Shown: positions 10,833 through 42,933, counted from the first letter of the stretch. The stretch: 64,000 nucleotides of DNA from Bacteroidota bacterium (GCA_024279935.1 JAJRQZ010000181.1:1-64000), one strand, 5' to 3'. Translations and numbers: made by a program. The notes: a model not told the origin generated them from the sequence alone.

Positions 10833-11675
10833 ATGAAAAATTTAAGAAAAGTGGCTGTGGTAACTGCCCTTATTATGTTACCCATGTTCGTGGCAACAAG
10901 TTTTGCCCAGAAAAAAGTGATGTTAAGCTATAAGTTAACGCAAGGCAAATCATATAAAACGCTTATTAATATCGATCAGGACATTGATTTTGAAGCCAAC
11001 GGGCAAAGCATGTCCTTAAGCCAGCTTATGTCGATAAAAACAACTGTTACTATCGACAAGGCCTCCGCAACGGAGAATACAACAAAAACCACGCTCACAG
11101 CAATACGGATGGAACAGAGCATCTTCGGCATGGACATCGTTTACGACTCCGAGGAGGAGACAAACAAAAGCGACCCTATGTCGAAACAAATCGCACAAAC
11201 TTTCGAAAAACTTATCGGCAACTCATACTCGGTGATTTTTGACAACAAAGGAAACGTAAAGGAATATGATTTGGGTGATTTTGGCAAAAACAACGACATG
11301 GCCAACAACCTTTCGTCAGGCGGCAGCTATGTTGTTTATCCCGATTATAAAGTTATGGTAAACGACAGCTGGGAAGCCGACATTAAGCCTATGGAAACCA
11401 GCGATATGAACTATCATACGAAATATACTGTCATCAAGATCACCAGAAAAGTTGTAACGCTCGGTGTTTCAACAACAATAAGTGCCAACAACCTCAATGG
11501 CGAAAGCGCCAAGGTAAAAGGTGAGATCAGCGGTAAGCTATTGGTCAACACTAAAACCGGCTGGACTATTTCATCGGAAATGGATATGGACATGAGCATG
11601 GAACTTGAGCAGAACGGAACAAAATTCCCGGCTACCATCAGCGGGACCATTAGCACAAAACCGCAAGAAAAATAA
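10833..11675 (+). CDS. Secreted protein of unknown function (DUF6263-like)
   Basis: 280 residues with a clear signal peptide (MKNLRKVAVVTALIMLPMFV, cleavage after SFA). There is no lipobox cysteine, so the protein is probably periplasmic or secreted. The mature part is rich in beta-strand patterns. It begins VMLSYKLTQGKSYKTLI and contains VYPDYKVMVNDSWEAD and a Met-rich MDMDMSMELEQNG strand. This overall pattern resembles DUF6263-type proteins of Bacteroidota, whose function is unknown. There are no catalytic motifs. rimO begins four bases after its stop, so the two may share a transcript, although no functional link is apparent. Confidence 0.7.
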   Translation: MKNLRKVAVVTALIMLPMFVATSFAQKKVMLSYKLTQGKSYKTLINIDQDIDFEANGQSMSLSQLMSIKTTVTIDKASATENTTKTTLTAIRMEQSIFGMDIVYDSEEETNKSDPMSKQIAQTFEKLIGNSYSVIFDNKGNVKEYDLGDFGKNNDMANNLSSGGSYVVYPDYKVMVNDSWEADIKPMETSDMNYHTKYTVIKITRKVVTLGVSTTISANNLNGESAKVKGEISGKLLVNTKTGWTISSEMDMDMSMELEQNGTKFPATISGTISTKPQEK

Positions 11676-11679
11676 GAAT

Positions 11680-12972
11680 TTGAAGAAAAAAACCGTCAAT
11701 ATCATAACGCTGGGCTGCAGCAAGAACATCGTTGATTCGGAAGTGCTTATGCGACAGCTGGGGAATGATTACTCCATTAGCCATAATTCAAATGAAGATG
11801 CGGATATCCAGATAGTGAACACTTGCGGCTTCATTGGCGATGCGAAAGAAGAATCCATTGATACTATTTTGCAGCTTACGGACGCAAAGAACGAGGGGCT
11901 TACATCAAAAGTTTATGTAACAGGCTGCCTTTCACAACGGTACAAGGACTCGCTAATTAAAGAGATTCCCGATGTTGACGGTTTTTTTGGCGTAAACGAC
12001 CTTGCGGATATTTTAAAAACCCTTGATGTTGATTACAAGCTCGACCTGGTTGGCGAAAGAAATCTCACAACCCCAAAGCATTATGCTTATTTAAAAATAT
12101 CGGAAGGCTGCGACCGCAGCTGTTCATTTTGTGCCATTCCACTGATCCGCGGAAAACATATCTCAAGACCCATTGGGGAATTAGTAAAAGAAACCGGGTT
12201 TCTCGCATCGCGAGGCGTGAAGGAAATAATGCTGATAGCCCAGGATTTAACGTATTACGGATTGGATATTTACAAAAAAAGAAGAATTGCCGAGCTCATT
12301 AACAATTTATCAAAAGTTGACGGAATAGAATGGATCCGACTTCATTATGCATATCCCCAAGGCTTTCCTGAGGATTTGATCGACGAAATAAAAAACAACC
12401 CTAAGGTCTGTAATTATTTGGACATCCCGCTTCAGCACATAAACAACAGGATATTGAAATCGATGAGGAGGGCACACGATAAGGAAGCTACTTTAAAATT
12501 AGTCGGGGATTTCAGGAACGCCCTGCCGGATTCGAGCCTGAGGACGACACTGATTGTCGGGTACCCGGGCGAGACCGAAGACGAGTTCGGCGAATTATAT
12601 GATTTCGTAGCAAAGCAAAGATTCGACCGTTTGGGGGTGTTCCGGTATTCGGCCGAAGAAGACACCTCAGCATTTTTGCTTGAGGACGATGTAGGGGAAC
12701 AAACCAAGCAAGACAGGGCCGATAAGCTGATGATGTTGCAACAACAAATCTCGTTGGAGAAAAACAAGTCGAAGGAAGGGGCAACCTTAAAAGTTCTTTT
12801 CGACAGGCATGAAAACGGTTTTAGCATTGGAAGGACTGAGTTTGATTCGCCCGAAGTAGATAACGAGGTATTGGTCGAGGATGAAAATCATGAAATTAAA
12901 ACCGGGGAATTTTATAAGGTCAAAATTCTCAAAGGCGATTTTTTCGATCTGCATGGCGAGTTGGTCAAATAA
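11680..12972 (+). CDS. rimO: Ribosomal protein S12 methylthiotransferase RimO
   Basis: A 430-residue radical-SAM enzyme that adds a methylthio group to the conserved aspartate of ribosomal protein S12. The N-terminal UPF0004 domain has its three cluster cysteines in ITLGCSKN, NTCGFIGD and TGCLSQR. The radical-SAM cluster is in EGCDRSCSFCAIP (CxxxCxxC), and a TRAM domain closes the protein. I chose the TTG at 11680 (LKKKTVNIITLGCSKN). It lies four bases after the preceding stop, and the family begins there. The upstream ATG at 11605 would lie inside the preceding gene and add unrelated sequence. Confidence 0.93.
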   Translation: MKKKTVNIITLGCSKNIVDSEVLMRQLGNDYSISHNSNEDADIQIVNTCGFIGDAKEESIDTILQLTDAKNEGLTSKVYVTGCLSQRYKDSLIKEIPDVDGFFGVNDLADILKTLDVDYKLDLVGERNLTTPKHYAYLKISEGCDRSCSFCAIPLIRGKHISRPIGELVKETGFLASRGVKEIMLIAQDLTYYGLDIYKKRRIAELINNLSKVDGIEWIRLHYAYPQGFPEDLIDEIKNNPKVCNYLDIPLQHINNRILKSMRRAHDKEATLKLVGDFRNALPDSSLRTTLIVGYPGETEDEFGELYDFVAKQRFDRLGVFRYSAEEDTSAFLLEDDVGEQTKQDRADKLMMLQQQISLEKNKSKEGATLKVLFDRHENGFSIGRTEFDSPEVDNEVLVEDENHEIKTGEFYKVKILKGDFFDLHGELVK

Positions 12973-13227
12973 AATCTGCCGGGAAAGATAGCAATAATCA
13001 ATTGGGGGGGGCGATAATAAACAAGTAAAGCTTTCTTCATTTTCGGATAAATTTTGCAAATTAACATACAATTCCGAAATAAACAGGTAACTCAATACTT
13101 AATAAAAAATCAATCCAATAGTTTTATAACTATAATACAGGCATTTATATTTATTGGCATGGCAATTGTAAAGTAGTGTCCAATCCCATACGGGAATTGT
13201 AATTGGAAAATTTGGTTTTGGTTGATT

Positions 13228-17808: not shown

Positions 17809-19875
17809 ATGAAAAAATTATCATTAACTATTATCTTATTGAGCATCATCATGCTCGGTTATTCGCAAGAATACTGGGAGGAAGTTCAAACTACGGAGCC
17901 TTATGGCGCTCTAAATCATTGTGTTTTCATGGACACGGACAACGGCTGGGTTGTTGGGCAGAACGGCATTATCCAGCACACCTCCGATGGTGGCCTAAAC
18001 TGGGACCAACAGTACGACGATGCCAACAAATTATTTCGCTCGGTACATTTCATCAATAACGATGAAGGGTGGGTAGTAGGCTGGAACGATATACTTCACA
18101 CCACCGATGGTGGACAAAACTGGGAATTCCAAACCCATCCACCAATTTTAGGAGATATTAATGACGTATTCTTCCTTGACCAAAACAACGGCTGGATAGT
18201 TGGTTGGTATAAGATAATACTGAAAACAACCGATGGTGGACAAAACTGGCAGAAAGTATCAAATCTTGTAGGTGGTGAAACTATTTACAATTCCGTGAAA
18301 TTCTTCGACGAGGAACACGGTATATTATGCGGAGTCAGGCAAAATTACGGTGGAATTATTATGACCACCAGCGATGGCGGACTTAACTGGACCGAGACAG
18401 GCCCGTCCTCATCTTCTGAATTCCTATCCCTCGACATCAACGATCAAGACGAGGTTTTCGTTTGTGGCGCCAACGGCCAATTATTCAAATCGGGGGACAT
18501 GGGGCAAACATGGACGGACAAGAGTATAGGCATGAACTATTTCATGGATATCGAATTTGGCGAAAACCAAGTTGCATATCTCCTCGACCATACCACTATT
18601 TATAAAAGCACCGATAACGGCAACACGTGGAATGCCGACGAAACAATTCCTTTTTCCTTAGGCTTGAGGGATATTGCCATCGGTGGCGTTCAACTGTATG
18701 GCTGCGGAGAAAACACCTCCGTCTATAAAAAACTGGAAGGAATCCATGAATGGCAAAAGCTGCTTTACAATAAACCATTGTTATTCAGGAATATAGAGTT
18801 CGCCAACGATTTGGATGGATTTGCCTTAACCGGCATCGGAATGCCCATAAATCCCTATCGGACAAGCGATGGCGGCCTAACATGGGAAAACGATTCGTTG
18901 ATACCCGAAGAAAGATACTATAAGTTGCGCTCGGCAAATCAAACCCTTTTCTATTTAAGCTTTAGCAACAATTTATTGAAAACTCCCGATGGGGGCCAGA
19001 ATTGGGAAACCATTCAGCTCCCGCCCGCACAAGGCGCATATTATAACGACTTTTCAGTGCCGAGCGAAAACACCGCATACTTATGCGACGACTCCTCAAC
19101 AGTATATAAATCTACCGACGGTGGCCACAATTGGAATAAAATAGAGTTCGACGAATATCATAAATTCTCCATCTCATATTTCTATGACGATAATTTTGGT
19201 TGGCTTGTCGATGATTATTCAGGTTATCTTTCCAGGACTACCGATGGCGGCGAAACCTGGACTAGCATGAAAGTTGACCCTGTCCATACTTACGTTCCTT
19301 CGAGTATTTATTTCATCAATAAAAACGATGGCTTTATAGTTACCGAAATTGGATATGTATATCGCACAAGCGATGGCGGCGACAGCTGGGAAAAGGTTTT
19401 CGGGTTGGATATGTCGTATTATGCGATTTTCCATTTTATAAATGAGAACAAAGGATATCTGATAGATAAAAACCAAATTTATTTAAGTGAGGACGGCGGC
19501 TACACCTGGGTGGAGTACCAAACATTGAGCCAAACGGTATTTTGTGCTGAATTTTTAGGTTCAAATTCATGGCTGGCCGGCAATATCAATCTTATGGCAA
19601 TAAATCCCGACTTATTGGATGTAAGCGATATCTCAACAAACGATCCTTCAATAAGTGTTTATCCAAACCCTGCAGAAAACATTATTTATTTGAACAATGG
19701 ATCAAATACTCGGATAAACAAAATGGAGATTATTAGTCAGGATGGCAAATTAGTCAGTTCGCTGTCAGTGCTTACCGGTGATGCAATTGATATATCTGAC
19801 TTGAATCCGGGTGTGTATTTCGTTAGAACATATTCCGGTCAGGGCATCAGCACAACCAAGCTTATCGTGAAATAA
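17809..19875 (+). CDS. T9SS type A sorted protein with YCF48-like beta-propeller repeats
   Basis: 688 residues beginning with a signal peptide that ends near SQE. The main body holds twelve blade-like repeats of the form T/S-x-D-G-G-x-x-W, for example HTTDGGQNW, KTTDGGQNW and RTTDGGETW. This is the pattern of BNR/YCF48 photosystem-II-stability-like propellers. The last 75 residues form a type IX sorting domain: SVYPNPAENIIYL, then ISDLNPGVYFVR and a final KLIVK. The protein is therefore exported across the outer membrane and released or anchored. In this phylum such proteins are abundant surface components, and the ligand is unknown. The repeats leave a low-complexity signal in the DNA (repeated GATGGTGG-type words). 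Confidence 0.9.
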   Translation: MKKLSLTIILLSIIMLGYSQEYWEEVQTTEPYGALNHCVFMDTDNGWVVGQNGIIQHTSDGGLNWDQQYDDANKLFRSVHFINNDEGWVVGWNDILHTTDGGQNWEFQTHPPILGDINDVFFLDQNNGWIVGWYKIILKTTDGGQNWQKVSNLVGGETIYNSVKFFDEEHGILCGVRQNYGGIIMTTSDGGLNWTETGPSSSSEFLSLDINDQDEVFVCGANGQLFKSGDMGQTWTDKSIGMNYFMDIEFGENQVAYLLDHTTIYKSTDNGNTWNADETIPFSLGLRDIAIGGVQLYGCGENTSVYKKLEGIHEWQKLLYNKPLLFRNIEFANDLDGFALTGIGMPINPYRTSDGGLTWENDSLIPEERYYKLRSANQTLFYLSFSNNLLKTPDGGQNWETIQLPPAQGAYYNDFSVPSENTAYLCDDSSTVYKSTDGGHNWNKIEFDEYHKFSISYFYDDNFGWLVDDYSGYLSRTTDGGETWTSMKVDPVHTYVPSSIYFINKNDGFIVTEIGYVYRTSDGGDSWEKVFGLDMSYYAIFHFINENKGYLIDKNQIYLSEDGGYTWVEYQTLSQTVFCAEFLGSNSWLAGNINLMAINPDLLDVSDISTNDPSISVYPNPAENIIYLNNGSNTRINKMEIISQDGKLVSSLSVLTGDAIDISDLNPGVYFVRTYSGQGISTTKLIVK

Positions 19876-20687: not shown

Positions 20688-20695
20688 TACTTTTG
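20688..20695 (+). promoter_or_regulatory. -7 box of the B12 operon
   Basis: TACTTTTG places the transcription start at about 20700-20703, exactly where the cobalamin riboswitch begins. The -33 region falls inside the right arm of the adjoining inverted-repeat element. Confidence 0.6.
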
Positions 20696-20702
20696 CCGCA
20701 AG

Positions 20703-20878
20703 TTTTGGTGCCATTTCCTGCACGACCATGCAGGTGGTATAATAGGGAAACAGGTGTAAATCCTGTACAGTTCCCGCTGCTGTAAGCTCTTTGTGCTTTC
20801 GAACCCTTGGTCACTTTTCACGTAGGTTACGGGATTGGGAAGGCCTCGAAAGCGGAGTAAGTCAGAAGACCTGCCAAT
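20703..20878 (+). ncRNA. Cobalamin riboswitch
   Basis: All core blocks of the B12-sensing RNA appear in order. These are GGTGCC near 20707, the GGGAAACAGGTGTAAATCCTG block (about 20745-20765), the CCCGCTGCTGTAA block (20773-20785) and the B12 box AGTCAGAAGACCTGCC (20860-20875). Peripheral helices fill about 70 bases between the last two. Cobalamin binding normally lowers expression of the downstream genes. The start of the four-gene B12 uptake unit is about 125 bases downstream. Alternative pairing is possible: CGAAAGC at 20847-20853 can pair with GCTTTCG at 20795-20801 inside the aptamer, or with the same word at 20895-20901 after it. Confidence 0.95.
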
Positions 20879-21003
20879 ACTGTATTTTATCAAAGCTTTC
20901 GGGATAATGGCTTGGTGATGTTTTTTTAACATTCCATAATGTTTCTTCCTGAAAAGTTTTGAGGTTAATTAATTTTTTTAATAATTCCTTAAAACTTTTT
21001 TTT

Positions 21004-22266
21004 ATGAAAAAGATTTACTTTTTAAGTCTGACGGTGCTTGCGATAGCCCTTTCAGCATTTCGCGCAAACGCGCAGACAAACTACACCAAACAAATTATTT
21101 TTGTCAATGGTGGCGATTTCGGCAATGCCGACGATTTCGTAACAGTGGCGTCCTACGACCCGGAAACCCAAACAACTACCGAATTTGCGACGATTTATAC
21201 GCAATCGGTACAGGATGTGATTATCAATGACGGCTATGCTTATGTTGCAGCACAAGATTCCATTGTTAAGCTCAACATCGATACTTATGAGAAGGTTGCC
21301 TCGGTAGCGGCTTCCGGCATCAATCAACTTTCGACCGACGGCAATGTCCTGACCGCTTCTATCTGGTATCCGGCAACAGAGAATTATGTAAGGATTTTCT
21401 CTCTCGACGACCTGAGCTTAATAACAAACATCGAGGGCATATCGGGCGAAGCAGCCGGAATACTTATAAATGACGGGATTGCCCTTGTTGCCGTCCCGGG
21501 CGGGTGGGGAAGCACCACAGGCAAAATCGCCGCCATCGACATAGTTGAAAACACTCTTTTGTCGGAAGATGATTATGGCGATTTTTATGCCGGTATCGGA
21601 TATTTTGCTTATTATAACGATATTGTCTTTAGCTTTATGAAAACAGCATGGGGCGATAGCACGGCTAAGGTTGCCAGTTTTGACAACGAAGGAAATGTTT
21701 TGGCCGAAACAACATTTACAAATGCTGTACTGGCAAACGGAACCGGTCAGCTTCAAGATAAATATTATGTTGAGCTTAACAACGGAATTGCCGCTTATGA
21801 TATGATCAGCGACGAGATGAACATGATCGTTGACCCTCAGCCGGCAAGCATTGCAGCCTCAACAATCGATACTGTCAACAATGTGATTTATCTGACGACA
21901 ACCGATTTCTTCTCCTCGGGCGATGGTTTTATTTATGATCTGGACGGAACACAAACCGGATTGTTCGATGCAGGCATCTCAGCCCAGGCCATTGCCGTTG
22001 ACTACCGATTGAACAGCGGGGCTGATAGAATAGCTGACAAAACGATAATATCATTATTTCCAAACCCCGCAACCGACATCATAAACATAAAAACCGAAAA
22101 CGACTTCAACATACAAAGGATAAATATTGTTGATGGTATGGGAAACTTAGTTTATAATGGCAATGCTTCTAACAGCATAGACATAAGCAATTTGAATCCC
22201 GGGGTTTATTTCATGAATATCATGGGCAGCAATTCGAGAACTTCATCAAGATTTATTAAAAATTGA
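21004..22266 (+). CDS. T9SS-exported beta-propeller in the B12 operon (YncE/BtuG-like fold)
   Basis: 420 residues. A signal peptide (MKKIYFLSLTVLAIALSAF, cleavage near ANAQ) is followed by about 330 residues of repeated blade patterns such as VQDVIINDGYAYVAAQDSIV and AGILINDGIALVAVPGGW. This is the style of YncE and BtuG surface propellers. The end is a type IX sorting domain (SLFPNPATDIINI, ISNLNPGVYFMNI, SRFIKN). As the first gene after the cobalamin riboswitch it is probably a cell-surface corrinoid-binding or accessory protein. Direct B12 binding is inferred from position and fold only. I chose the ATG at 21004, where the signal peptide begins. The next gene starts within its stop codon. 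Confidence 0.85.
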   Translation: MKKIYFLSLTVLAIALSAFRANAQTNYTKQIIFVNGGDFGNADDFVTVASYDPETQTTTEFATIYTQSVQDVIINDGYAYVAAQDSIVKLNIDTYEKVASVAASGINQLSTDGNVLTASIWYPATENYVRIFSLDDLSLITNIEGISGEAAGILINDGIALVAVPGGWGSTTGKIAAIDIVENTLLSEDDYGDFYAGIGYFAYYNDIVFSFMKTAWGDSTAKVASFDNEGNVLAETTFTNAVLANGTGQLQDKYYVELNNGIAAYDMISDEMNMIVDPQPASIAASTIDTVNNVIYLTTTDFFSSGDGFIYDLDGTQTGLFDAGISAQAIAVDYRLNSGADRIADKTIISLFPNPATDIINIKTENDFNIQRINIVDGMGNLVYNGNASNSIDISNLNPGVYFMNIMGSNSRTSSRFIKN

Positions 22267-23273
22267 TGAATCGTTCAATTTCATATAATAATATCGGGTG
22301 GTTCCTATTTATGGGAACTGCCACGATATTATTACTTTTTCAGATACCGGCATCGGCGCAGTTTGCACCTCCGGCGGGACAAATGGGTAGCACTGCCATA
22401 AAAGCCGACAGTTCAGTTTTCGTTAATTGGGCAGATAACTGCTTGATCAGCAGGGGCTTCGTTGATATAAGCATGGAGAGCATGGGCTTGGCAACTTATG
22501 GCTCCGACAGCTCGGCCTACGGTTTTGCGGACAATGGGGTAGTGAGTCTCGGCGACGGCGGGTCGGCGATATTATATTTTTCCACACCCATTGTTGACGG
22601 CCCCGGCTATGATTTTGCGATATTCGAAAACTCCTTCAACGATGACTTCCTGGAGCTTGCTTTTGTTGAAGTAAGTTCCAACGGCGTTGATTATGTGGGC
22701 TTCCCCTCTGTTTCCAATACTCAAACCCTTGAGCAAATAGGTACATTCGGTACGCTTGACGCCACAAAATTGAATAATATGGCCGGTAAATACAGAGGTG
22801 GCTACGGTACCCCTTTCGATTTAAACGAGCTGCAATATTCTGACAACCTGGATGTTCAAGATGTCAAATATATAAGAATAGTGGATGTTGTCGGCTGCCT
22901 TGCAGATGCTTATGCCTCTTATGATTCCCAAGGCAACAAAATCAACGACACCTGGCCCACGCCATTCGAGTCATCCGGATTCGATTTGGATGCCGTTGGG
23001 ATAATCAATGACGTGGAGCACCTCGCAGTTGACAACATCAGCGGTCAAGAGATAATTATTTATCCGGTTCCCTTTACCAATGTCCTGAATATAGGGAAAA
23101 TAGAGAAAAACTCCGTCATTAGCATTTTCGACTTGAATTCAAGACTAGTTTATTCCTCAAAGTGTGCTTATAGCAATTTCAGCCTTTCCGGCTCATCCCT
23201 ACCAAAAGGATTGCTGATACTGCGGATCGAAAGCGGCAGCTTATTAATTTACAAAAGAATATTACATCAATAA
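22266..23273 (+). CDS. T9SS-exported surface protein of the B12 operon, function unknown
   Basis: About 335 residues with a signal peptide (cleavage near SAQF). The central domain of about 210 residues begins APPAGQMGSTAIKADSSVFV. It contains VVSLGDGGSAILYF, YDFAIFENSF, LAFVEVSSNG and GFDLDAVGIIN. The pattern recalls carbohydrate-binding-like or jelly-roll surface proteins often labelled simply cell surface protein. A short type IX sorting-like domain follows (IIIYPVPFTNVLNI to KRILHQ). The start codon overlaps the upstream TGA by one base (TGATG), and a TonB receptor gene follows after six bases. Regulation by the cobalamin riboswitch suggests a role in corrinoid capture. I know of no demonstrated function for this family. 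Confidence 0.8.
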   Translation: MNRSISYNNIGWFLFMGTATILLLFQIPASAQFAPPAGQMGSTAIKADSSVFVNWADNCLISRGFVDISMESMGLATYGSDSSAYGFADNGVVSLGDGGSAILYFSTPIVDGPGYDFAIFENSFNDDFLELAFVEVSSNGVDYVGFPSVSNTQTLEQIGTFGTLDATKLNNMAGKYRGGYGTPFDLNELQYSDNLDVQDVKYIRIVDVVGCLADAYASYDSQGNKINDTWPTPFESSGFDLDAVGIINDVEHLAVDNISGQEIIIYPVPFTNVLNIGKIEKNSVISIFDLNSRLVYSSKCAYSNFSLSGSSLPKGLLILRIESGSLLIYKRILHQ

Positions 23274-23279
23274 AATGTA

Positions 23280-25238
23280 ATGCTAAAAACCATAAAACAT
23301 ATCCTCATTTTCATATTGCTGTTGCCGGGCCTTTCGGCAGGAGCACAAATGATGTTCGACACATTGAATTTAGAGGAGATGGTAGTTATGTCAAACTTCG
23401 TCGAGCGCGGCTCAACAAGGAAATCACAGAAGATAGATACTTTGATAAAGCAGGACCTAGACCATTTGGACCTTGGGGAGCTACTCAGGGCCGAAAGCCC
23501 GATCTTCGTCAAATCGTACGGAAAAGGCAGTCTGGCCACGGCAGCCTTCAGGGGCACGGCGGCCTCGCACACTAAAGTTTTATGGAACGATTTCGAGATT
23601 AATTCGCCCATGCTGGGGCAAGTTGACTTATCTCTTGTGCCTAATGCATTTTTCGACCAAGCGCAACTGGATTATGGCGGCAGTTCCATTCAAAGCACTT
23701 CAGGAGCCTTGGGTGGGGCAATCAACTTATACTCAGGTAATAACATTAGCTCGAACAAAATTGAGCTCAATCAGGGCATCGGTAGTTTCAATACTTTCAC
23801 CACAATGTTGAAAGTAAACCTCAAATTCAGGCAAATCACTTCAGGCACATCGGTTTACCTAAATTCATCGGAAAACTCATTTCCTTACTATAACAATGCC
23901 GTCATCCCGGCCAAATGGCAGAAACAGGAAAGTGCCTCATATTACAACAGAGGGTTTGTGCAGGAATTCGATTATTTGATCTCGGAACACCATTCCGTTA
24001 AAGTGCAATCGTGGAATCAATGGAATTACCGGGAAATACCCTTGGTCATGAGCAATGCGCAGGTAGGGAACAATGAGGAGCATCAGGGGGATTTTAGTTC
24101 CAGAAACATTGTTTCGTATAAATACAAGAAGTCGAGAACAGTTGTCGAAACCAAGGCTGCTTGGTTTTACGACGACATGAATTATTTGTTGAAGACAACT
24201 GCGGCCACCGACTACGAAGACACCGTAACGTTCATAAACTCCACAAACAAGAGCAGCTCGGGCTTTTTCAAAACAAAATTAAACCGCAATCTTTGCAAAG
24301 GCTGGATGGTTTCGGCAGAATTGTCGGCAAGTTTATTTTCCGTGAACTCGAATAATTATAATGGTATTAAATCAAGGGAGAATTATGGCCTGTACCTAAA
24401 ACTAAACAAGAAATTCTCCGAAACTATTGTTATGGATTTTTTGATGCGCCAGCAATATTCCGAACATAGGTTCCTTCCCATCATACCGTTCTTAGGATTA
24501 TCCGTAAAACCGGTAAAACAAGAGGAAATTTACCTGAGGGCGTCAGTAAACTTAAATTACAACCTGCCTTCATTAAACGATTTATACTGGTTCCCAGGTG
24601 GAAGCCCGGAACTATTGCCTGAGGAAGGAATGCAGTTAGACCTTGGGCTGAACTACGCAAAATCATTCTCCGAATCATTTGACCTAAGGATTGATATTAG
24701 TTTTTACAATTCGCAGATCTCCAACTGGATACAATGGGTTCCAAGCGATTATAGATATTGGGCCGCCCGAAACGTTGAAAGTGTCCATGCCAGGGGATTG
24801 GAAACCAGTATCAGCCTATCGGGAATCACCGGGGATTTTTTCTATAAGCTATCCACACAATATTCTTTGAACAAATCGACTAACGAAAGTGAAAAAGCAG
24901 AAAACGCCGGATATGCAGGAAGACAGCTGATTTATGTTCCGCTGCAGTCTGCAAACTTGTTCGCTTACATAAAATACAAGCGAAACACATTCAGCTGGAA
25001 CACTCAGCTCATAGGCAATAGAAACACCTCGCTCGATAGCGAAACGCTGTATTCCAACACATTGCCCGCATATTTTTTAAGCAGCATGTCGATTGGGAGG
25101 AAGCTCGGGTTTAAAAAATCCGGTTTAAATCTTAGGATAAAAATAAATAATATATTTAATGTCTCGTATCAGGCAATACTCTGGAGGCCAATGCCGGGAA
25201 GATACCTGGAGGCATTTTTAGGTTTTAATATAAAATAA
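23280..25238 (+). CDS. TonB-dependent receptor, BtuB-like (probable cobalamin transporter)
   Basis: 652 residues. A signal peptide (cleavage near GAQ) is followed by a TonB-box-like DTLNLEEMVVMS and a plug domain (DLGELLRAESPIFVKSYG, ATAAFRGTAASHTKVLW, TSGALGGAINLYSG). A beta-barrel rich in aromatic strands then ends LEAFLGFNIK. At 652 residues it is in the size range of BtuB rather than of the larger SusC proteins, and it lacks the SusC N-terminal carboxypeptidase-like domain. It lies third in the riboswitch-led unit, immediately before a BtuG-like gene. Import of cobalamin or its precursors is therefore the best reading. The periplasmic and inner-membrane parts (BtuF, BtuC, BtuD) are not in the window. 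Confidence 0.88.
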   Translation: MLKTIKHILIFILLLPGLSAGAQMMFDTLNLEEMVVMSNFVERGSTRKSQKIDTLIKQDLDHLDLGELLRAESPIFVKSYGKGSLATAAFRGTAASHTKVLWNDFEINSPMLGQVDLSLVPNAFFDQAQLDYGGSSIQSTSGALGGAINLYSGNNISSNKIELNQGIGSFNTFTTMLKVNLKFRQITSGTSVYLNSSENSFPYYNNAVIPAKWQKQESASYYNRGFVQEFDYLISEHHSVKVQSWNQWNYREIPLVMSNAQVGNNEEHQGDFSSRNIVSYKYKKSRTVVETKAAWFYDDMNYLLKTTAATDYEDTVTFINSTNKSSSGFFKTKLNRNLCKGWMVSAELSASLFSVNSNNYNGIKSRENYGLYLKLNKKFSETIVMDFLMRQQYSEHRFLPIIPFLGLSVKPVKQEEIYLRASVNLNYNLPSLNDLYWFPGGSPELLPEEGMQLDLGLNYAKSFSESFDLRIDISFYNSQISNWIQWVPSDYRYWAARNVESVHARGLETSISLSGITGDFFYKLSTQYSLNKSTNESEKAENAGYAGRQLIYVPLQSANLFAYIKYKRNTFSWNTQLIGNRNTSLDSETLYSNTLPAYFLSSMSIGRKLGFKKSGLNLRIKINNIFNVSYQAILWRPMPGRYLEAFLGFNIK

Positions 25239-26377
25239 TGTTTAAGCGTTTTACAAAAATAATTTCAAGGGAGTTCGACAATTTGGTTTTAGGAATGAGT
25301 TGCGGGACGGGATCCATAATAAATTGTACAACCATTAAGATCCTGGCAATTATTATTGCTATTGTTTTAATTTTTGGCTCATGCGATAAAAATCAAGTCC
25401 CGCTCCCTGCCGGAGAGCTGGAGCATGCTGTTTTTATAGTAAACGAGGGGAATTTCACAGCCGGCAACGCATCGCTGACTTATTACAACCAACAGACAGA
25501 TGAGCTTATCCAGCAGGTTTTTTATCGTAAGAACAATGCGCCTCTGGGCGATGTAGCCAATAGTATTCTCATAGGAACCGGCAACATATTCATTACTGTC
25601 AACAATTCGCATACAGTTTTTAAGATAGATGCGAAAACAGGTATTTACAAGGCAAAAACCGATCAGCTCACATCTCCGAGGAATCTTTTGAAAATAGATG
25701 ACAACAAAGCATTAGTTAGTGATTTATACGAAACCAAGCTCACATTGATAAATATCGACGATATGACGATATTATCGAAAATAAATATCGGCAGGACATC
25801 GGAGAACTTATTGCTGAAAAACAATGAGGTTTTTATCACGAACTGGTCGGCATATAATCAGGAGGCAGAAAACAACATGCTTATGGTACTAAATATTCAA
25901 AGCATGCAAATTGTTGACTCGGTAGTAGTTGGAAAAGAGCCCAACAGCATGGTCATCGATAAGGACGACAATATCTGGGTTTTGTGCAGCGGGGGTTTTA
26001 TGAATGAAGAGAAGCCTGGTTTGTGGAAGATAAATTCCTCGACCCATAAAGTTTTAAAAACCCTTGAGTATGACGACATCGGCACTTCGCCAACAGACTT
26101 GGCCATCAACCCTGCTGGAGACAGCCTCTATTTCATCAACAAAGATGTTTATTCGATGTCGGTAAACGACAACTCGATACCCGGCATCCCGTTAATTGTT
26201 GCTGGCGAAAACCTTAACTTTTATACTTTGGCGATCAGCAACAAAAACCAAATTTACGTGGGCGATGCCAACGACTACAACAAAAGCGGCGACATATTCC
26301 GGTACTCGGCTAAAGGAAAGTTGATCACCTCTTTCAAGGCGGGCATCATACCTGGCGACATTGCTTTTTTGGAGTAA
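25238..26377 (+). CDS. BtuG-like surface lipoprotein (DUF5074 beta-propeller)
   Basis: 379 residues from the coupled ATG at 25238, which overlaps the receptor's TAA (TAATG). A lipobox FGSC places the lipidated cysteine at about residue 49. An alternative ATG at 25295 would give a more usual 30-residue signal. The mature part begins with the family hallmark FIVNEGNFTAGNASLTYYN. Propeller blades follow, such as GDVANSILIGTGNIFITVNN and ISKINIGRTSENLLL-type strands. BtuG proteins of Bacteroides bind B12 very tightly on the cell surface and cap the BtuB receptor. Gene order receptor-BtuG and the upstream riboswitch support the same role here. Confidence 0.88.
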   Translation: MFKRFTKIISREFDNLVLGMSCGTGSIINCTTIKILAIIIAIVLIFGSCDKNQVPLPAGELEHAVFIVNEGNFTAGNASLTYYNQQTDELIQQVFYRKNNAPLGDVANSILIGTGNIFITVNNSHTVFKIDAKTGIYKAKTDQLTSPRNLLKIDDNKALVSDLYETKLTLINIDDMTILSKINIGRTSENLLLKNNEVFITNWSAYNQEAENNMLMVLNIQSMQIVDSVVVGKEPNSMVIDKDDNIWVLCSGGFMNEEKPGLWKINSSTHKVLKTLEYDDIGTSPTDLAINPAGDSLYFINKDVYSMSVNDNSIPGIPLIVAGENLNFYTLAISNKNQIYVGDANDYNKSGDIFRYSAKGKLITSFKAGIIPGDIAFLE

Positions 26378-42444: not shown

Positions 42445-42556
42445 AATAAATTATGATTTAATTATTTATAAAAAACCGATTTTCAAATCGGGCTGCAAAA
42501 GTGCGAATAATTTTTTAATTGGCAAAGGGAATTTATTAGTTTTATTTACCAAAAAA

Positions 42557-42933
42557 GTACCACGAAACTATAAGCGGGATCCTGTTCCATATTGCTATGG
42601 AGCCTATCATTTATCTAGCCCCGGAATCACTCCCGGGGTCAAGCGATCTACCCTCCGGCTCAGGCGGGCAGCCCTCAATCGCCGGTATATTTGATCTTGC
42701 AATCCATAAGGTTTGTCCACTTATACCGTCACCGGTATAAGTCGTGGGCTCTTACCCCGCGTTTTCACCATTGCCTCCCGCCGGGCGGGATAGGCTGTTG
42801 TTTTCTGCGACACTTTCTGTATCCCGTCATGCCAATTACAAAACGGGACCCTTCCCGTTAGGAAGTATGGCGCCCTGTATTGTCCCGACTTTCCTCCTCG
42901 CCTGAGGCGAGGCGATAGACCGTTTCGTGGTAC
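42557..42933 (-). ncRNA. rnpB: RNase P RNA, bacterial type A
   Basis: About 377 bases read on the minus strand. The ends pair as the P1 helix: the 5' end GTACCACGAAAC is complementary to the 3' end GTTTCGTGGTAC. Conserved elements are seen in order. These include GAGGAGGAAAGTCGGGACA followed by ACAGGGCGCCATACTTCC near the 5' end, GCAGAAAACAACAGCCTATC, GGCAATGGTGAAAACGCGGG with the GTAAGAGCCCACGA stretch, and the 3' segment ATAAATGATAGGCTCCAT. RNase P RNA cleaves the 5' leader from tRNA precursors together with the RnpA protein, which is not in the window. A -7 box five bases upstream fixes the 5' end closely. Confidence 0.95.

Follow-up and report, generated by a model that had tools for sequence, protein, structure and literature searches.

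Background

Uptake of vitamin B12 in gut Bacteroides depends on BtuB, a TonB-driven outer-membrane channel, for which the lipoprotein BtuG forms a lid. Lipoproteins BtuG, BtuH and BtuJ are all established in these organisms. To our knowledge, most of what has been learned about B12 uptake in the Bacteroidota comes from gut Bacteroides, in which the accessory binders are all lipoproteins. Note that B12 is limiting in many microbial communities.

The closest described system is locus 1 of B. thetaiotaomicron, which encodes BtuB1 and BtuGH (BT_1490, formerly BtuG1; structure 8BLW). Both halves of BtuGH bind B12 (PMC12751083). The contacts made by BtuH2 (BT_1956, 7BIZ) are Gln333, Asn399, His476, Tyr510, Trp511 and Trp577, with Asn399 touching the B12 nucleotide loop (PMC8941943). 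A third group is the DUF4465/BtuJ family. B12 binding is the rule among its members (PMC13398666, PMC12751083), and a DUF4465 protein of Fluviicola taffensis (F2I9N3), tested by Clarke et al., was found to bind B12. Published members, BtuJ1 and BtuJ2 among this family, are described as lipoproteins or periplasmic proteins, not as cargo of the type IX secretion system (T9SS), and T9SS is not mentioned in either of the two papers (PMC12751083, PMC13398666). More broadly, our literature search, with preprints and most subscription papers outside its coverage, found no paper linking T9SS with BtuG, BtuB, the cobalamin riboswitch or B12 binders.

Here, we describe a locus from a Bacteroidota bacterium (GCA_024279935.1) that shares a riboswitch, BtuB, a BtuG-type propeller and a BtuH-type domain, all in one operon, with locus 1. 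Unlike locus 1, the present one encodes its additional propeller and its BtuH-like domain as separate proteins with T9SS sorting domains, and has a plain BtuG lipoprotein as well.

A cobalamin riboswitch heads four genes

The window analysed is a stretch of 64,000 nucleotides, and all coordinates are counted from its first letter. The features are as follows.

20689–20891, + strand: cobalamin riboswitch aptamer, RF00174 (cmscan 90.7 bits, E 3.8e-21, full-length 1–189)
21004–22266, + strand: orf1, 420 aa; signal peptide, predicted BtuG-like beta-propeller, T9SS type A sorting domain
22054–22257, + strand: T9SS sorting domain of orf1 (PF18962 match, own-genome scan)
22266–23273, + strand: orf2, 335 aa; signal peptide, predicted BtuH-like beta-jellyroll, T9SS type A sorting domain
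22629–22631, + strand: codon for Asn122 of Orf2, invariant; equivalent to BtuH2 Asn399
23058–23258, + strand: T9SS sorting domain of orf2 (PF18962 match, own-genome scan)
23280–25238, + strand: orf3, 652 aa; BtuB-type TonB-dependent receptor
25238–26377, + strand: orf4, BtuG lipoprotein with DUF5074 propeller

The riboswitch match covers the whole aptamer and far exceeds the gathering score of 31.5, and no second one turned up in the 3.73 Mb assembly. It is followed by orf1, orf2, btuB and btuG, all on the same strand, as the preliminary description had proposed. That description also took the four genes to overlap. This holds for orf1/orf2 and for orf3/orf4, which overlap by one base each; orf2 and orf3 are 6 bases apart. 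Folding of the stretch 3' of the aptamer yielded no stable terminator signal (z 0.84), and repression may act through either termination or translation. The chance of a riboswitch lying directly upstream of such genes by coincidence is negligible; we estimate about 0.1% per genome, because there is roughly one riboswitch per 3–4 Mb. Elsewhere in the window, bacterial RNase P class A RNA is encoded at 42555–42931 on the − strand.

The core transporter is a BtuB-BtuG pair

Judged by their sequences, Orf3 and Orf4 are the known BtuB-BtuG pair. All 10 PDB matches of Orf3 at E≤1e-5 are BtuB, the best being 8bmx_C (E 4e-73), of the B. thetaiotaomicron type. A TonB plug domain is present (Plug, E 5e-7). 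Against TIGR01779, Orf3 scores only 54 bits, under the equivalog cut-off of 600, and we therefore assign it to BtuB of the Bacteroidota type. Orf4 contains the DUF5074 propeller (PF16819, E 3e-13), matches solved BtuG structures with a best E of 7e-58, and adjoins btuB, overlapping it. Its lipobox, LIFGSC, is readable in the sequence, with the Cys49 codon at 25382–25384. The receptor and the lipoprotein were thus correctly recognised from the outset.

Orf1 and Orf2 carry T9SS export signals

Both upstream proteins end in the Por_Secre_tail domain PF18962, above the Pfam cut-off (E 4e-14 for Orf1 and 8e-8 for Orf2). Signal peptides were identified by eye, ending in RANAQ and PASAQ respectively. 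Both proteins therefore have the properties of T9SS type A cargo, namely a signal peptide, a C-terminal PF18962/TIGR04183 domain and a host genome with T9SS, and the earlier claim of two T9SS-sorted proteins stands. We infer that they are located at the cell surface. The genome encodes approximately 149 T9SS sorting domains above cut-off and has a gene for the translocon protein SprA. The reading frame that contains the SprA_N match (contig C56 of this genome, G000; 11473–13059) has a single internal TAA, which may reflect an assembly error or a split sprA.

The tails are a regular property of both families, being found in 60 of 62 orf2 relatives and in all 29 orf1 relatives. Note that an orf1 alignment containing the tail, compared with 296 genomes, matched T9SS tails everywhere, and only three full-length matches (G000, G168 and G041) were informative.

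Orf1 is predicted to be a BtuG-like propeller

Searching the PDB with the plain sequences of Orf1 and Orf2 returned only T9SS tails and chance matches. Since this was uninformative, profiles and folds were needed for both proteins.

Outside the tail, Orf1 has no Pfam domain. An AlphaFold2 model built from 30 homologues (pLDDT 93) was compared with 350,542 PDB chains. The top seven matches were all BtuG (BT1954, BT2095, BtuG1 and BtuG2), with TM-scores of 0.77–0.79; the next propellers followed at about 0.62. Profile comparison with BtuG by hhalign gave 99.1% (E 4e-19) over 323 columns, spanning the full propeller. Compared with BtuG2 and BtuG3 (BT_1954, BT_2095), the modelled propeller is the same but identity is 14–16%, the lipobox is missing from the signal peptide and a T9SS tail is present. 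Anchoring by an N-terminal Cys and capping of BtuB, which define BtuG, are accordingly not attributes of Orf1. With no lipobox, and a C-terminal T9SS domain instead, Orf1 is therefore BtuG-like and not BtuG. On the modelled fold and the profile match, Orf1 is a predicted BtuG-like propeller with a T9SS tail in place of the lipobox, in agreement with its initial reading as a T9SS counterpart of BtuG.

The domains of both Orf1 and Orf2 are very acidic (pI 4.05), which we liken to the negative B12-binding face of BtuG2 (PMC10404256). Orf1 is a putative corrinoid binder.

Orf2 is a probable remote homologue of BtuH

The preliminary description suggested comparing both T9SS proteins with BtuG. While this was apt for Orf1, Orf2, which that description had assigned to no family, is not BtuG-like but BtuH-like. 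Its domain outside the tail is unannotated. In a fold search with the AlphaFold2 model (pLDDT 94), 7BIZ (BtuH2 with B12) ranked second (probability 1.00) and 8BLW (BtuGH) fourth (probability 0.99), in a list with F5/8-type-C jellyrolls. These two structures had the highest TMq of the list, yet this was only 0.45, a value insufficient by itself for homology and accepted here only together with a chain of profiles.

That chain runs as follows. The Orf2 profile (A1) matches the BtuH half of 8blw with an E of 5e-4, and an intermediate family (A3), obtained from the phylum scan, matches the same half with 8.5e-5. By hhalign, Orf2 (A1) and A3 are related at 99.9%, and A3 and BtuH at 97.7%; the direct comparison of Orf2 (A4) with BtuH gave 84.8% over only 51 columns. 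The BtuH alignment used (A6) was verified against 8blw (E 1e-126) and 7biz (E 1e-82). Together, profiles and folds support Orf2 as a distant BtuH homologue, a link that is remote but consistent.

Profile alignments of Orf2, A3 and BtuH place Asn122 of Orf2 in register with Asn399 of BtuH2. This position is Asn in 63 of 63 orf2 relatives, 22 of 22 intermediates and 8 of 8 BtuH sequences. Gln333 of BtuH2 corresponds to Gln in 44 of the 63 relatives. For the corrin-ring contacts Tyr510, Trp511, Trp577 and His476 we found no aligned equivalent in the Orf2 family; Asn399 is the only B12 contact of BtuH2 that is invariant there. Overall, Orf2 and BtuH2 share the fold of the B12-binding domain, a VSLG-GG / DF..F.N core and the Asn. 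They differ in that Orf2 has neither PKD domains nor a lipobox, is shorter, and is divergent in its C-terminal half. Like Orf1, Orf2 is a putative corrinoid binder.

Linkage to B12 genes is conserved across the Bacteroidota

Our survey of gene neighbourhoods covered the 80 top-ranking orf2 loci from GTDB genomes, selected without regard to riboswitches. At 54 of these, the 5.5 kb upstream contain an RF00174 match on the same strand. The btuB or btuG gene was nearby at 61, and one or other sign of B12 uptake (RF00174 or btuB/btuG) was present at 69, leaving about 10 with no visible B12 link. Ambiguous loci were re-checked with Rfam, and coincidences of coordinates were removed (L053, L087, L091 and L110). 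An even, phylum-wide sample gave a similar picture: in 19 of 35 genomes with an orf2-like gene, a riboswitch on the gene's own strand lies no more than about 5 kb upstream of it. These genomes, which include distant relatives, were not chosen for riboswitches, and positions were compared by hand. The preliminary description would have failed if the T9SS proteins occurred mostly away from B12 riboswitches; this is not what we observed.

The orf1 gene is present at 31 of the 80 loci, always beside orf2, and orf2 adjoins orf1 at 19 of 20 loci found by means of orf1. Either gene can also occur alone. Thus, orf2 stands by itself directly behind a riboswitch in L081, L093, L103 and L114, and is followed by cobT and cobS in L097. 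An orf1 homologue, with no orf2, sits directly behind its own cobalamin riboswitch in L194, and another is alone, with neither a riboswitch nor btu genes, in L193.

At nine btuB/btuG loci no RF00174 match was found in the upstream sequence present (L067, L079, L105, L111, L113, L078, L083, L091 and L112). These loci have the orf2-btuB-btuG core; in the first five the region concerned lies upstream of orf1, and several share an A+T-rich box before orf1. At other btuB/btuG loci, riboswitch absence is owing to an assembly gap (L065) or, for some, to a contig ending upstream. Separately, a DUF6580-type membrane protein is encoded beside orf2 or btuB in L097 (8647–9225) and L108 (upstream of orf2), and might serve corrinoid uptake as a partner in the inner membrane.

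Orf1 exchanges with DUF4465 and DUF4430 proteins

Where orf1 is missing, the slot beside orf2 often contains a gene for DUF4465, the BtuJ family. In total, 22 DUF4465 genes either lie close to orf2 or are fused to it. All except one have a T9SS-like tail, the remaining case (L077) having a lipobox instead. The Orf2 domain and DUF4465 are joined in one protein, under a cobalamin riboswitch, at L117:421–2130 and L099:4315–6093. Hence, in relatives, the same operon slot is taken by a T9SS-tailed member of a family proven to bind B12. DUF4465 itself (PF14717) had no match in Orf1, in Orf2 or in the whole genome of the window, and is seen in related loci only. Proteins with DUF4430 repeats and T9SS tails also fill the slot in riboswitch-headed B12 operons (L064:8788–9969 and L133:7116–8738). 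DUF4430 itself may be one more surface domain connected with corrinoids. It thus appears that B12-binding domains of one kind can be exported by either of two routes, lipidation or T9SS.

Discussion

The locus is likely to be a B12-repressed corrinoid-uptake operon in which Orf1 and Orf2 replace the BtuGH lipoprotein of B. thetaiotaomicron in a split, T9SS-sorted form. Since Orf1 is BtuG-like and Orf2 a distant BtuH homologue, the pair is plausibly a split, T9SS-exported BtuGH counterpart. At low intracellular cobalamin the riboswitch would permit expression of orf1-orf2-btuB-btuG; with plentiful B12 the operon would be off. T9SS would bring Orf1 and Orf2 to the surface, where they would capture corrinoids and pass these on to the BtuG lid and BtuB. 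The genome has several B12-binding enzyme domains, including those in frames of 1224 and 723 aa, sizes that would fit MetH and methylmalonyl-CoA mutase.

Might Orf1 and Orf2 be ordinary T9SS surface proteins or adhesins, located in a B12 operon by chance? In a genome with some 149 T9SS-tailed proteins, one beside any operon is unsurprising, and another such gene lies upstream at 17809–19875 (tail 19657–19869). Against this, the gene order is conserved across many families, a riboswitch accompanies 54 of the 80 best orf2 loci, the fold matches are specific to BtuG and BtuH, and there is both exchange and fusion with DUF4465. We consider a chance association highly improbable. A division of labour is also conceivable, with Orf2 (or DUF4465 elsewhere) binding the corrinoid and Orf1 having a structural part: as a scaffold, or as a propeller resembling a lid, it would dock Orf2 to BtuB-BtuG but would not itself bind B12. 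Propellers often act as docking modules, and orf1 is absent from 49 of the 80 loci, with DUF4465 or DUF4430 proteins instead in many. However, among PDB propellers the Orf1 fold comes nearest to B12-binding BtuG, and the solitary orf1 homologue of L194, directly behind its own riboswitch, has no Orf2 to dock. Docking alone thus seems doubtful.

The third alternative is a variant of our preferred reading and does not exclude it. Orf1 and Orf2 might be released, not anchored, and scavenge B12 as a diffusible protein "corrinophore", the load of which is recaptured by BtuB-BtuG. T9SS can either release its cargo or leave it anchored, but many type A cargo proteins are linked to A-LPS at the surface; the present data fit both. 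A precedent for delivery is that BtuJ, on vesicles of B. thetaiotaomicron, supplies B12 to cells in a siderophore-like manner (PMC12751083). Release deserves some weight, but we think it rather unlikely.

Returning to the split BtuGH counterpart, we favour, with some reserve, a wider interpretation. T9SS would be a second widespread export route in environmental Bacteroidota for domains of the BtuG, BtuH and BtuJ types, which would be either lipoproteins or T9SS cargo. The T9SS versions, whether released or tethered to A-LPS, would capture B12 and feed BtuB-BtuG. Because two proteins related to known B12 binders of the cell surface bear T9SS tags, and so are marked for another export machine than their counterparts in gut bacteria, many environmental Bacteroidota probably have an extra outer layer of B12 scavenging. 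If this is correct, a function could be named for the unannotated Orf2 family, with its hundreds of members, and soluble B12 binders, easily tested, would be on offer. The same binding domains would have switched secretion machinery in Bacteroidales, Flavobacteriales, Chitinophagales and other groups, and T9SS would have a role in vitamin acquisition.
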